Shown here piece after piece: positions 10,120 through 64,000 of a stretch of DNA of 64,000 nucleotides. A model generated the notes under the pieces. That model worked only from the letters and a program-made list of their open reading frames with translations. It did no database searches and was not told the DNA's origin. Origin of the DNA: Scenedesmus sp. ARA3 (Eukaryota > Chlorophyta > Chlorophyceae > Sphaeropleales > Scenedesmaceae); contig RWJK01001345.1 of the NCBI GenBank assembly GCA_004335835.1, positions 13,455 to 77,454 of the forward strand, in the 5' to 3' direction. The translations under genes were made by a program, and so were the position numbers. Positions within the stretch are counted from its first letter, which is position 1, and every line of letters begins with the position of its first letter.

Positions 10120-10508
10120 ATGGGCACAGCTCAGCAGCCGCTGGCGCTGCTGCTGTTAGGACTATGCTTGCTGTATTTAGCTCCAAATGTGAGTTCACAG
10201 CTCCGCAGCAGCGTCGAACAATAGCAAGAGCAGCGCTGTGGGCATAGAAGTCACTTCTATTCCCACGACAATCGTCAGCGGCGGCGTTGGCTGTCGCAGC
10301 AATGCTGGCGGCAGCGCAGTACTCGGCGCATATGCATCGGCAGCAGCATCAGCGCTCCAGGCGGCTGCAACAGCAACAGGACCATATTCCATCACCACAG
10401 CAGCAACAGCAGCAGCGGCAGCAGCGGCTGGGTGACGAAAGTGATGCAGGCCGCGTGGACAGCTAGAAACGGGCTGCAGGGAATCCGCAGCTGCCACACA
10501 CACATACA

Positions 10509-10554
<46 letters not shown>

Positions 10555-60000: not shown

Positions 60001-63000
60001 TTTGTCGTTGCAACACCGTGATGTATGCTTGCACTGCTGCTTCTGCTGCCGCTTTTTTCCACTGTCAGCTTGCACCGTGGTTCAGGTCGTACCTGGTGGA
60101 AATGACACAACGCTGCGCACACGCATCGCCTGCAGCTTGGGTGCAAGCTTCACTTGGGCAGCAGCAGACAGGGCACACATTGTCATACCAGTGACAGCTA
60201 GCTCTGCAGCACAGGGCAACCTGACAAATGAGGCAACGGCAACTGACAACCAGAACCGCACAGCAAGCGACAGACAAATTACGTTGGTGGAAGCTGCTCC
60301 TCTGGTGAGCAGAGTGCAAACCAGGCTGAAGCCAACGACACTTGCTCTACATATTGTCTCAGATTGACCACTGCTTCATGCTTGCGGTTGCTGCTCAGCC
60401 CTGTGTGAATGATGCTGGCGCAATGTGTATTGCACACTTAGCAGCCGACTTTGAAGCTTGCTGGTGAGCAGAGTACAAGCCAGCATGCAGGAAGCGCCAC
60501 GTGCTCCTCACAACACTTCAAAGTCACCCATGCTTTTGGCTCGCGGTTGCCGCAGGGCCCTATGTTATGATCGCTGACGCCATGTGTGCCACGCAAGTAG
60601 TTGCCGCTTCTGCTGAGCTTGCTCACTTGCGCCGTCAACGCATCAATGCAAACATGGCACAACCCTACAGCAGCATCACCAAGCTTTGCTTATATTATAT
60701 ATACTGTCCCTCAGCACGCCCTTGTTCTGTGCTGCTCACTGCTTGCAGCTGCCATTTGTGGTTTACAAAAGCGGCCCCACACAGCCTCTGCTGACTGGTC
60801 AATCCTTCAACTACAGCATCAGTGTGACCTTCCAGAGCACATGCAGAGGAGTGAACATCATCGATGTGCTGCCTCCTGAGGTCAAGGCATCTGCTGTGAA
60901 CGCCACGTGGTTTACACGCAAGACCAACGCAAGCACACGTGAGTGGTCTGTAGGCGGCATCATACCTGCTGCAGCTTGTGCAGAGCGCCTGATCACAGTA
61001 GTGGATTGATGACGTTGCATAAGATGCATGGGCAGGGCATCTGATGTACCTGCCTGAGCCGCTGCACACGTGCTGCATGGCGTTTCAGTGTCTCCACAGA
61101 TTGCACACTCGCCCAGGTGCCGCACACGTGCCGAGGCATCTGCTTTCTGACGTATCAGATCAAGCATGCGTCCAGTTCTTCTATCACTCACTCTAGCTCT
61201 GCGCTGCTGAACACTGTTTTCTCATGCAGCCTGCATCACAAATGCAGCTGCCAGCCCACAGGTCATCAGCTGCAGCTTGGGTGCCAGTGAAAGCTGGGCA
61301 GCAGGGGACGTCGTGGAAGTAACTCTGCCTGCCACAGCAGGCGCAAACGCGAGCAGCAATGCTACCAACACGGCGCTTGTGGTTGATGATTTGGGGCGCA
61401 CCGGCAATGACACGTTCAATGTCACGATCGTGGCGGCGGCACCGGGGGTGAGTCATGCTACTGCCACATGGGCCGCTGACGACACAACAACGCTGGGTTT
61501 GCTTGCAGTTACAGCATCAGCAGTTGCAGCAGCAGCATGCATGCATGCATGCGCAGTGCAACGGCAGTGGCCGCTAGCACTGGCTGCATGTGCCTCTGCA
61601 TGTAGAAATTCATCTGCTGCTGTTACCCCCGGTCCTGCCTGTGAACACTGTCAGTTGTGTGTCTTCAGCAGATGAAACAATGCGGCTGAGCAGCGCCGGC
61701 AGCCCACCGGGCATCAGTGTGGCATTGGTTGCTGCAGCAGATTACAAAATACACGCCATATGCATTTCAAACGCTCGTGCAGGTCATCAAGCTGACCAAA
61801 ACAGGGCCGACTGCTCCAGTGACTCACGGCCAAGCCTTCAATTTTGAACTCCGCGCTACGTTTGAAGCGGCCGGGCCCTTCACAGCTGCCAGCATTGTGG
61901 ATGACCTGCCTGTGGGGCTGCTGCCTGGAGCTGCAAATGCAACCTGGACAGCAAACAACACTGCTGCAGGACGCCTCAATGGATGTGAGTGTTTACAATT
62001 GGACGTGCACCTTGCACATATTGCAGCGCCACTGGCTAGCACCCATGCATGGGTGTCCATACGGGTGTTCAGTTTGATTTGTGCTTGCATGCACATCAAA
62101 AGAGTTCCAAGGTTCTGGCTGCAAACACAATCACCAGCCGTCGGGTGGTGCTGTTGTGCTGCCCAACATGATTGTAGAAGTGTTTGAAAGTTGTATACGA
62201 CTAAGCGTCGGAGATCATTGTGGTAATCATGCTTAGTTCTGGCACAGTGTACACTGTCTAGATCTTGTACAGCTGCGCCCGCATCACAGCTTCATGTGAT
62301 GAAATCGCACCTTCCTTATGTTGTTATTGTTTTCTGCAGCCTGCGAGACAACAGCTGCAAGGAGTCCAGAGGTCACTTGCAACCTAGGCGCCTCAACCAA
62401 CTGGACGTTAAATGACACAGTGCTCGTCACCGTGCCTGTCATTGTCAACAGCAGCGCAAACGGCAGCCTGGTCAACTCAGCCACCATCACTGCTACTGCT
62501 GGCAATCAAATCATTAGCAGCACGGCCAATGCCACCGTCATTGTTACAGCCAAAAATGCCACCTCAGCGACTTTGAAAGTAACAAAATCCGGCCCTGGAG
62601 CAAGTGTCAGGCCAGGGGAGGCCTTCATATTCAATGTGACTGCTGGAGTGGCAAAGGATGGACCGGTCAACCCTCTGATCCTGGTAGATGAGCTGCAGTC
62701 AACAGATTTGAAGTTCCAGGCACCGCTGCCTGCAGGTGTGTGGTCACTCAAGATACAGCCACCTGTGCATGTTGGACCCGTTTGACCATCGTGTAATAAG
62801 GTTGACTGCTTGATGTACTGTACATGCATCACATGCAGATATGGCAGGTGCTTGTGTTTGATGCTGCCTGCGCAGCGTTTGCTAGCTTGGCTCCTGATCA
62901 CCAGCCTTGTTTGTTTTACTGAACCTGATGTGTTACATGTCATCCACCTGTTTGTACAGGCTGCACCCAGAACAGCGATCAGAAGGCAACGTGCAGCTGG

Positions 63001-64000
63001 AATGAATCAGTGCAAGCAGGAGCCGACAAGCAGCTGCAGTTCAGGGTGGTTGCCAGCAGGGCAGGAGTCTTCCAAAACAGGGCAACCGTGTTCACCAGCG
63101 CACCAGGTGTTGCAAACCAGACAGCTACTGCACCAGTCACTGTTGTGGTGAGGACACCGCTGCAGCTAGCTAGTTGCAGCAGCACATCAGCGCAGCTGCA
63201 CAAAAGCTTTGCGCTGATGTTAAATTCAAAGCAATACACACCCTGGCCTGTTCACACGTGTCAAAAAACTAAATTATGGGCAAAGATGGCACCTCTGAGG
63301 GAGCAGCAGCAGCAGCAAAACTGTAAGCGCATGTCCGACCCAATCAGGTTGCCGTGCAGTGCTTGACAGCGCGCTGCATTCTACATTACCGGCATGCCAG
63401 CACGTGTCACTAACAACCAATACTCGGTCAATGCTGCTGCTTGCAGGACAGTAACTCGGCAGATGCAGCGATCGCAGTGAGCAAGATGGGGCCCACTGCT
63501 GCGGTTGAAGTCAACACAGAGTTCACATTCAGCCTTGCTGCAAGCGTGGCACAGGGCAGCGTGAGCAGCATGGTGCTGACAGACACAATGGATGCTGCCA
63601 CTGGCATAACCTTCTTGAGGGTCAGCCCAGATGCAGGTGCGCATTGCGGCGAAGTGTGTGGTTTCTTTGTGATGGCTGTAGTTGCTGGTAGTAGCAAGCT
63701 TGCTGTAGTGCTGCTGTATTGGTGCGGTCTGGCTTGGTTGAATGCATGTCATTTGCAACCCAAGTTTGGTGCTGTTTCAAGTTGAGGTTTGTCTGAATAA
63801 ACAATTCCTGCCGCCAACTTCTGCTGCTCTGCTGCTGCTGCTGCTGCTGCTTCCTCCACTGCCTCCAACTTGCTGCTTGGCACCCTGCAGGCTGCACCGT
63901 AGCTGCGCAGCTGCTGCGCTGCAACCTCACAGCACCCTGGCCCAAGACCCTCATACTCACAGCAAAAGGCAGCAAGGCAGGCACCTTCACAAACCGCGTG
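54508..64000 (+). CDS. Gene C: third modular matrix-like paralogue, cut by window end
   Basis: Seventeen coding exons visible: 54508-54582, 54898-55098, 55602-55745, 56112-56246, 56595-56977, 57411-57953, 58169-58880, 59239-59361, 59557-59764, 60069-60304, 60749-60938, 61230-61447, 61783-61984, 62340-62735, 62960-63147, 63447-63636, 63891 to beyond 64000. 1418 codons are visible. Signal peptide MVTPKQLGALLLLLLGFWAL; head to 185; only three 4-Cys repeats; long Ser-Pro linkers in exons 6 and 7; CC modules to 772; DUF11-like domains from 773. Compared with A it lacks the counterparts of exon pairs 10/11, 12/13 and 18/19, consistent with gain or loss of whole phase-symmetric modules. The C-terminus lies outside the window. 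Confidence 0.87.
54898..56246 (+). other. Gene C head domain, exons 2-4
   Basis: AACCTLGQPKY, ATCSDGPCQGPGFNYN, DNCCDTRPGDPVNG; FWYNPQ...TYANGSLALWY; DVPTGTCNDLN ... FQCPPGWML ... DACC. Intron 2 carries an ACC/CAG-rich tract around 55295-55405. Confidence 0.72.
56595..58880 (+). other. Gene C: three 4-Cys repeats with Ser-Pro linkers
   Basis: One repeat per exon (5, 6, 7), joined by phase-2 introns. Exon 6 ends and exon 7 begins with long (Ser-Pro)n runs (57860-57953 and 58169-58360), the substrate for prolyl hydroxylation and arabinosylation in algal hydroxyproline-rich glycoproteins. Exon 7 ends with a CC module (STCGDALTE ... YNCSRATM ... SVCC) nearly identical to the one ending exon 8 of A. 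Confidence 0.72.
57100..57121 (+). repeat. Decoy copy of gene C exon 5 end with donor
   Basis: cagccccatctccaaggtg recurs 139 bp after the real exon end (56977), following a (CTG)n tract. Confidence 0.75.
58919..59125 (+). repeat. Two-copy ~109-bp tandem duplication inside gene C intron 7
   Basis: 58919-59017 and 59027-59125 are diverged copies (tagtNggcagagcagcagtc ... gatcatctgctctgatt). Unlike the others it does not include an exon edge. Confidence 0.75.
59239..59361 (+). other. Gene C CC module exon
   Basis: ATCSDRNITAPA ... SCANN ... LNST ... GLCC, 123 nt in phase 0, same length as exon 9 of A. Confidence 0.65.
59557..64000 (+). other. Gene C: DUF11-like domains, array incomplete
   Basis: Pairs 9/10, 11/12, 13/14, 14/15 and 16/17. 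Exon 14 (396 nt) is the fused exon equivalent to exon 21 of A. Exon 17 opens GCTVAAQLLRCNLTAPWPK, almost identical to exon 24 of A. Confidence 0.72.

Follow-up and report, generated by a model that had tools for sequence, protein, structure and literature searches.

Giant tandem genes of a green alga encode DUF11/CLIPPER arrays that retain the residue triad of bacterial isopeptide domains

Do the domains that stiffen bacterial pili and adhesins through isopeptide bonds also operate in a eukaryote? This question is raised by a locus of the green alga Scenedesmus sp. ARA3, where three giant genes, here called A, B and C, lie head to tail in the 64,000-nucleotide stretch analysed (the window; contig RWJK01001345.1, positions 13,455 to 77,454, or C982:13455-77454 in the 87.3 Mb, 1567-contig assembly that was searched). 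Self-crosslinking of this kind is not so far accepted for eukaryotes. Whether eukaryotes have intramolecular isopeptide bonds was asked in 2014, according to a citation in a 2025 survey whose available text reports such bonds in bacteria and archaea (PMC12617251). The negative set of Isopeptor consists of eukaryotic structures, for the reason, given in the available text of that paper, that its authors know of no such bonds there (PMC11919812). The domain in question is already known; the kingdom and the architecture are new. An earlier note, made from the sequence alone, had described spliced, giant and apparently secreted algal proteins built from modules of bacterial-adhesin type. Our analysis supports that description. 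What the note missed is the most interesting part, namely that the residue triad of isopeptide-forming DUF11 is conserved. We put a probability of about 0.7 on the reading that A, B and C represent a Scenedesmaceae family of giant secreted matrix or wall glycoproteins with an autocatalytically crosslinked DUF11 stalk.

The DUF11/CLIPPER arrays and their residue triad

The name CLIPPER was given to DUF11 once a crystal structure had shown a Lys715-Asn806 bond with a nearby Asp. According to the available part of that report, the bond of the bacterial domain confers proteinase K resistance, and the wild type unfolds near 80 °C while the Lys mutant unfolds near 45 °C (PMC12617251). The spliced product of gene A, trimmed to 2828 amino acids (aa), was scanned against Pfam in three pieces. 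Its DUF11 part matched DUF11 (PF01345) in 7 stretches (E = 1.6e-40, 138.4 bits against a cut-off of 24.6), TIGR04226 RrgB_K2N_iso_D2 in 4 stretches (E = 9.1e-25, 87.9 bits against a cut-off of 30) and TIGR01451 (E = 3.4e-17, over the NCBIfam cut-off). SpaA_2 (PF19403) was matched in 5 stretches elsewhere in the protein (E = 1.3e-22, 80.6 bits against a cut-off of 25). The DUF11-like arrays named in the earlier note are borne out by these values, and the hidden Markov model (HMM) search for DUF11 and SpaA similarity that it proposed gave clear results, over cut-off for PF01345, TIGR01451 and SpaA_2.

Nine algal seeds were used to build a profile, and DUF11 modules were extracted with it. Distinct genes contributed 36 complete modules (A 9, B 9, C 6, and 7 and 5 from the public models P0001 and P0005). 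Lys and Asn were present in every one (36/36 each) and Asp in 35/36, the remaining module having Glu. When P0002, a partial Tetradesmus obliquus model, was added, the counts for Lys, Asn and Asp became 42, 42 and 41 of 42 modules, and these were the three most conserved of 121 columns. Two Cys columns were occupied in 38/42 and 36/42 modules. In a separate alignment of 11 modules the invariant residues were Lys, Asp, Asn, one Cys and two Ala. Outside the count, where the profile was partial or blind, fell the tenth module of A (in which Lys and Asp are present), partial modules of B, P0001 and P0002, and the last modules of C and P0005. An apparent 'K-P-N' reading in P0046 (A0A383WE23) was rejected as an alignment shift, the sequence reading VTK...LVDTM...YTNTAV.

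The module profile was also compared with known structures. When the DUF11 array itself was run against the PDB with phmmer, nothing matched, and a module profile was needed. The 11-module profile returned two matches at E<=1, to the CLIPPER structure 9IFR (6.9e-5) and to the pilin Spb1 (3e-4). The significant stretch of 9IFR contains Lys715 and the Asp, and the single stretch of Spb1 spans all three triad residues. By prediction, the modules adopt a CnaA-like beta-sandwich fold, with BcpA, EbpB, PilA and RrgB among the best structural matches. These come from single-domain VIA-align rows, which were relied on because the Foldseek top list for the multi-module model consisted mostly of multi-domain immunoglobulin-like (Ig-like) proteins that superpose poorly.

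The algal arrays thus resemble CLIPPER (9IFR, Acinetobacter silvestris) in profile homology, predicted CnaA-like fold, Lys-Asp-Asn triad and the arrangement as a tandem stalk within a long secreted-looking protein. They differ from it in that the genes are eukaryotic and spliced, a conserved Cys follows just after a conserved intron site, the Asn of VtNxGP is mostly lost, no bacterial anchor was found, and the modules are joined with algal Cys-rich domains and Ser-Pro linkers. The pilin isopeptide domains of RrgB D2 and BcpA are alike in the TIGR04226 match over cut-off and as top structural matches, whereas the algal proteins are long single chains in which nothing suggests pilin polymerisation, sortase motifs not having been searched. 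Bacterial and archaeal fibrillar adhesins share the tandem stalk and, as judged by hydropathy, the signal-like start.

A proposed crosslinked stalk and its alternatives

In the mechanism that we propose, the signal peptide would send each chain into the secretory pathway. A Cys-rich head would be followed by an arm of CnaB-like SpaA_2 modules, then by the long stalk, made of CnaA-like DUF11/CLIPPER modules in tandem, and by Cys-rich GACC and knottin-like ends, with disulphides locking the arms and ends. Within each DUF11 module, the first-strand Lys would bond to the Asn of the 'vNtAtV' strand, autocatalytically and enzyme-free. The Asp of 'xDxLPaGL' would assist, following the crystal structure of bacterial CLIPPER, and the bond would usually lie beside a disulphide. 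Some ten crosslinked modules per stalk could then provide resistance to heat, protease and tension. We lean towards the further claim that these are the first eukaryotic autocatalytic Lys-Asn isopeptide proteins, with about ten bonds per chain in a locked matrix stalk and a SpaA_2 arm that has swapped this chemistry for disulphides. If so, a bacterial load-bearing chemistry would operate in the eukaryotic secretory pathway. In scenedesmacean algae the proteins could play a part in the resistant wall or in the coenobial joints, and they could bear on the hard-to-break walls of Scenedesmus, a practical problem in algal biotechnology. Since the family is intron-bearing, multi-gene and cross-species and its triad is conserved, the eukaryotic isopeptide question becomes directly testable.

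Several observations weigh against this reading. The available text of the 2025 survey sets aside the eukaryotic hits as likely to be false positives, since the residues concerned lay exposed and lacked conservation and related eukaryotes had no homologues of the proteins (PMC12617251). In 9IFR, Asn806 is covered by a second stretch that scores 2.5 bits and is not significant alone, and the aligned Asp is residue 749 by hand count, compared with 748 in the available text of PMC12617251. The AF2 model was built from a shallow alignment (12 sequences; mean predicted local distance difference test 65.4, predicted template modelling score 0.32). The structural list also includes integrins and PrgB, and therefore an Ig-like fold in general matches. 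Two modules have lost the triad, as read by eye: in the last of gene C (65680-66491 in window numbering, L009) Met and Gly take the places of Lys and Asp, and the last of P0005 has none of the three residues. At the level of the whole protein, Pfam shows no anchor domain in spliced A, nor any known adhesion or sorting domain at E<=1, a search that domains outside Pfam would escape. For the maternal wall of S. obliquus 633, a published proteome names 12 bona fide wall proteins, among them large hypothetical proteins of 2214 and 1433 aa; in the text available, a link to the A/B/C family could not be made, and the term 'DUF11' is not in the main text (PMC11839794). In its Scenedesmaceae database that study could assign 129 of 156,706 spectra (0.08%), for which it proposed chemical modification as an explanation (PMC11839794).

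The location of the proteins bears on the first alternative, in which the repeats are not a wall stalk but make up a soluble protein outside the cell. Such a protein would serve in binding or defence, for instance as a decoy or by binding carbohydrate, by means of its Cys-rich ends. Conservation of the Cys-rich head and tail in A, B and C would suit such a protein, as would the lack of an anchor or wall-binding domain in the Pfam scan. The size, the tandem stalk and the Ser-Pro-rich linkers better fit structural matrix proteins, however, and we regard a soluble role as unlikely. We infer a cell-wall or adhesion role, with the proteins probably residing in the wall, coenobium or mucilage. Gene A encodes 61 N-glycosylation sequons against 31.4 +/- 4.8 expected (500 shuffles). 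The signal-like start, the Ser-Pro linkers and the abundance of sequons are reminiscent of the hydroxyproline-rich extracellular glycoproteins of chlorophytes, although in Pfam spliced A matched none of the named algal wall families.

A second alternative concerns the chemistry. Lys, Asp and Asn may be kept for the fold alone, without a covalent bond, the stability of the modules arising from the Cys pair as in disulphide-locked Ig-like repeats. The frequent occupancy of both Cys columns fits this explanation. Furthermore, in a non-algal comparison set of 34 hits and 383 modules, bacterial where named, the triad was complete in 380/383, so that it is kept equally well outside algae and, in these alignments, conservation alone cannot separate chemistry from a need of the fold. 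Nine columns were conserved at >=0.80 in the 383 modules, the triad and six others. Three of the six were mostly kept in the 36 algal modules (Ala270 32/36, Gly28 28/36, Pro73 27/36), as a fold constraint would also allow, but the other three drifted (Tyr33 12/36, mostly Phe; Asn39 5/36; Gly48 4/36, mostly gap). Among the nine hallmarks, as aligned here, solely the triad stayed complete. The joint loss of Lys and Asp in the last module of C, and of all three residues in that of P0005, fits a coupled function and shows that the module can persist without the triad. We think retention for the fold alone rather improbable. The last module of gene C offers a natural control for the triad.

History, spread and origin

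That the genes belong to the alga is supported by their introns. Guided by the partial T. obliquus models P0040 and P0002, in which some exons are skipped, a phase-1 intron was located directly before the conserved Cys in all modules tested of A (6/6) and B (6/6). In the P0005 orthologue, a distant paralogue of A and B (contigs C841 and C1292), it occupies the same site in 5/6 modules, one of them shifted by one residue, and the sixth has no intron. The raw splice models place it in 10/10 modules of A and 5/6 of C. Because this intron site is shared, the intron-bearing DUF11 module was the duplication unit before the subfamilies split, and the array expanded inside the alga. A FastTree phylogeny was built from the 36 algal modules and a sample of 102 non-algal ones. 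All but one of the algal modules (35) grouped with a single non-algal module (support 0.93); the exception, from P0005, fell outside this group.

Orthologues occur beyond the window's strain. P0040 is 98.9% identical to gene A over 1134 aligned residues, and P0002, the orthologue of B, is 97.7% identical over 1623; by this measure the alga of the window is T. obliquus or a strain very close to it. The Scenedesmus sp. orthologue P0001 is 60% identical over 52% of A. Further T. obliquus records and Scenedesmus sp. NREL 46B-D3 also have orthologues. In protein searches, which scored only candidates sharing most words, the algal matches were solely from Scenedesmus and Tetradesmus, and the length and word limits may hide others. 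Non-algal matches with a named organism were mostly from Chitinophaga and Pedobacter, at about 25% identity. A gene upstream of A (6895-8207, VVGISGSS...GWVELSCYGGPLTTQKGIE) is fused into the P0001 model, and the gene neighbourhood is therefore conserved. This neighbour looks SpoVS-like, but the one open frame of it that was searched matched no Pfam family over cut-off.

Given these introns, orthologues, neighbourhood and tree, the explanation that the locus was recently acquired from bacteria or stems from assembly contamination is very unlikely, even though its module types are otherwise bacterial and archaeal and the available text of the 2025 survey suspected contamination behind its own eukaryotic hits (PMC12617251); patterns from P0040, which find close relatives only, also gave 13 matches in prokaryotic contigs, none confirmed, and no confirmed relative in viral contigs. 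The SpaA query had no match in plasmids. Of the two origins offered in the earlier note, convergence is unlikely for DUF11 because homology is detectable by profile. Expansion after acquisition by transfer is upheld in its second half by the shared intron site; transfer itself is plausible. The note's view of an undescribed system agrees with the literature, in that no report of this family was recognised among the matches listed for isopeptide together with eukaryotes, algae or DUF11, or for DUF11 together with Chlorophyta. A term search of the text of a review of the green algal matrix found neither 'isopeptide' nor 'DUF11'.

Across the assembly, the SpaA query gave 47 matches on 12 contigs and DUF11 gave 27 matches on 9 contigs, 19 of them over cut-off. 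Together they cover 19 contigs, some of which carry pieces of one gene. One subfamily member (L015, C1382) combines SpaA_2-like modules with long Ser-Pro linkers and repeats of the motif 'SCxLYxxxGPCAxxTCxC'. Another (L021, C1399) has SPSPAP linkers, a SpaA-like module, DUF11 and several GACC repeats. A 1638-aa open frame on C1399, considered as an intronless relative, proved to have arisen falsely from a gap in the assembly that had been read as N.

Gene copies, other modules and exon borders

Open-frame pieces of each gene match the other two exon by exon, so that A, B and C are colinear head-to-tail paralogues, with identities mostly of 40-70% between translated pieces. Examples are the A-B exon pairs 12297-13061 and 33910-34659 (E = 1.2e-54) and 22502-22888 and 44906-45289 (E = 1.1e-48). 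Splice models were guided by this conservation and were bounded, with forced signal exons and with GT-AG introns only by construction; guided by P0040 and P0002, GT-AG borders were found in the window at 12/12 junctions tested. The bounded models replaced permissive early models with GC donors and tiny exons, and one that fused A, B and C into a single gene. The raw models contain 37, 37 and 23 exons, doubtful tiny ones included. The three head-to-tail genes of the earlier note agree with these results, and its roughly 30 introns are a fair figure for gene A. Its lengths of 2874 and 2739 aa hold as to giant size, the models differing in the exact values (Table 1). Its third gene is not incomplete: only the window cuts gene C, and the contig holds its end, with coding sequence up to 67904 in window numbering (C982:81358) and a TGA that closes at 67907. 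The fifth DUF11 module of C ends beyond the window, and the sixth lies beyond it.

Table 1. Features of the locus in window coordinates, from the splice models
Feature	Position	Strand	Details
Gene A	10120..28643	+	3085 aa raw, 2828 aa without doubtful pieces; about 30 introns
Gene A exon 1	10120..10188	+	signal-peptide-like MGTAQQPLALLLLGLCLLYLAPN; phase 0; donor GTGAGT
Gene A N-terminal Cys-rich head	10822..11937	+	ACCTFGQ..., CQD..CC; model exons 2-4; counterparts in B, C
Gene A SpaA_2 array	12273..15789	+	7 modules: 12282, 12654, 13011, 13371, 14125, 15040, 15430; CnaB-like
Gene A DUF11/CLIPPER array	16486..27277	+	10 modules, 9 profile-complete; K-D-N in 9/9
Gene A triad Lys codons	16510, 17371, 18370, 19317, 20308, 21941, 22733, 24017, 25464, 26540	+	
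Gene A triad Asp codons	16603, 17467, 18463, 19413, 20401, 22043, 22835, 24116, 25584, 26639	+	
Gene A triad Asn codons	17000, 17986, 18945, 19985, 21518, 22637, 23344, 24618, 26175	+	nine modules placed
Gene A GSCC/GACC Cys-rich domain	27550..27825	+	GSCC 27571, GACC 27691; counterpart in B
Gene A C-terminal Cys-rich domain and stop	28068..28643	+	knottin-like by Cys pattern
Gene B	31584..50911	+	paralogue; 2952 aa raw
Gene B exon 1	31584..31649	+	signal-peptide-like MVASKQQAVLLLAAGLLLLALQ; phase 0
Gene B SpaA_2 array	33889..37931	+	6 modules: 33895, 34252, 34609, 36160, 36898, 37569
Gene B DUF11/CLIPPER array	38853..49466	+	9 profile-complete modules; K-D-N in 9/9
Gene B GSCC/GACC and C-terminal Cys-rich domains	49743..50911	+	splice model, motif positions
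Gene C	54508..64000 in window	+	shorter paralogue; 2052 aa raw; runs beyond window
Gene C exon 1	54508..54582	+	signal-peptide-like MVTPKQLGALLLLLLGFWALADIPA; phase 0
Gene C SpaA_2 modules (3)	56595..58742	+	sequence matches, splice models
Gene C DUF11/CLIPPER array	59516..64000 in window	+	6 profile-complete modules; K-D-N in 6/6

The order of modules is signal, Cys-rich head, SpaA_2 array, Cys-rich linker, DUF11 array, GSCC/GACC domain and Cys-rich tail. Signal-like starts were judged by eye and by hydropathy; exon 1 of each gene is hydrophobic, with phase 0 and a GTGAG donor. The signal peptide (as a signal-like exon 1), the Cys-rich head (present in A and matched in B and C) and the GACC-type motifs (located in A and B) of the earlier note were all recovered. 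Its knottin-like ends agree with the Cys pattern and lack Pfam support, the best family for the tail being Dickkopf_N at E = 0.0067, below cut-off. The tail domain was found on C982 (three genes), C1292, C1265 and C712. In gene C, one splice model includes Ser-Pro linkers at 57864-57953 and from 58169, and a stricter model omits both. A Cys-rich module of about 45 aa (TCxDxN...CP....PP....CC) is repeated many times in P0003, P0004 and P0005 and at 15790-16278 in the window; the Pfam scan of spliced A assigned it to no family.

The SpaA_2 modules match the prealbumin-like domain PF19403 over cut-off, and their predicted CnaB/prealbumin-like fold resembles CnaB-type pilin domains. Unlike that family, the 21 algal modules examined, without alignment to bacterial SpaA_2, have no conserved Lys-Glu-Asn isopeptide triad, and they carry four Cys that are invariant (21/21). 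The best Lys column holds 19 Lys and 2 Arg, the best acid column is occupied in 13/21, and the best Asn/Asp column in the last third in 16/21, mostly by Asp. Of the SpaA/InlB-like repeats described earlier, the SpaA part stands; for InlB no Pfam family appeared at E<=1, although short repeats can escape profiles.

Local duplications were observed at several exon borders. In gene A, window 20400-21192 holds seven tandem copies of a DUF11 exon end with its 5′ splice site, each reading ...GGAGGTGAG, spaced 117 nucleotides apart (once 116), with exon ends at 20479, 20596, 20713, 20830, 20947, 21064 and 21180. At least four of these donors join 21375 in frame to give nearly the same protein, and P0040 uses the first. 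In gene B, window 41269-41846 holds four tandem copies of an exon start, with acceptors before 41326, 41460, 41581 and 41773. Each joins the same donor in frame and yields the same peptide, and splicing could use any of the four copies. The introns at 23637-24113, 43094-43322 and 43644-43852 contain partial tandem copies of the adjoining exon edges, which suggests frequent local duplication at exon borders in the DUF11/SpaA_2 family.

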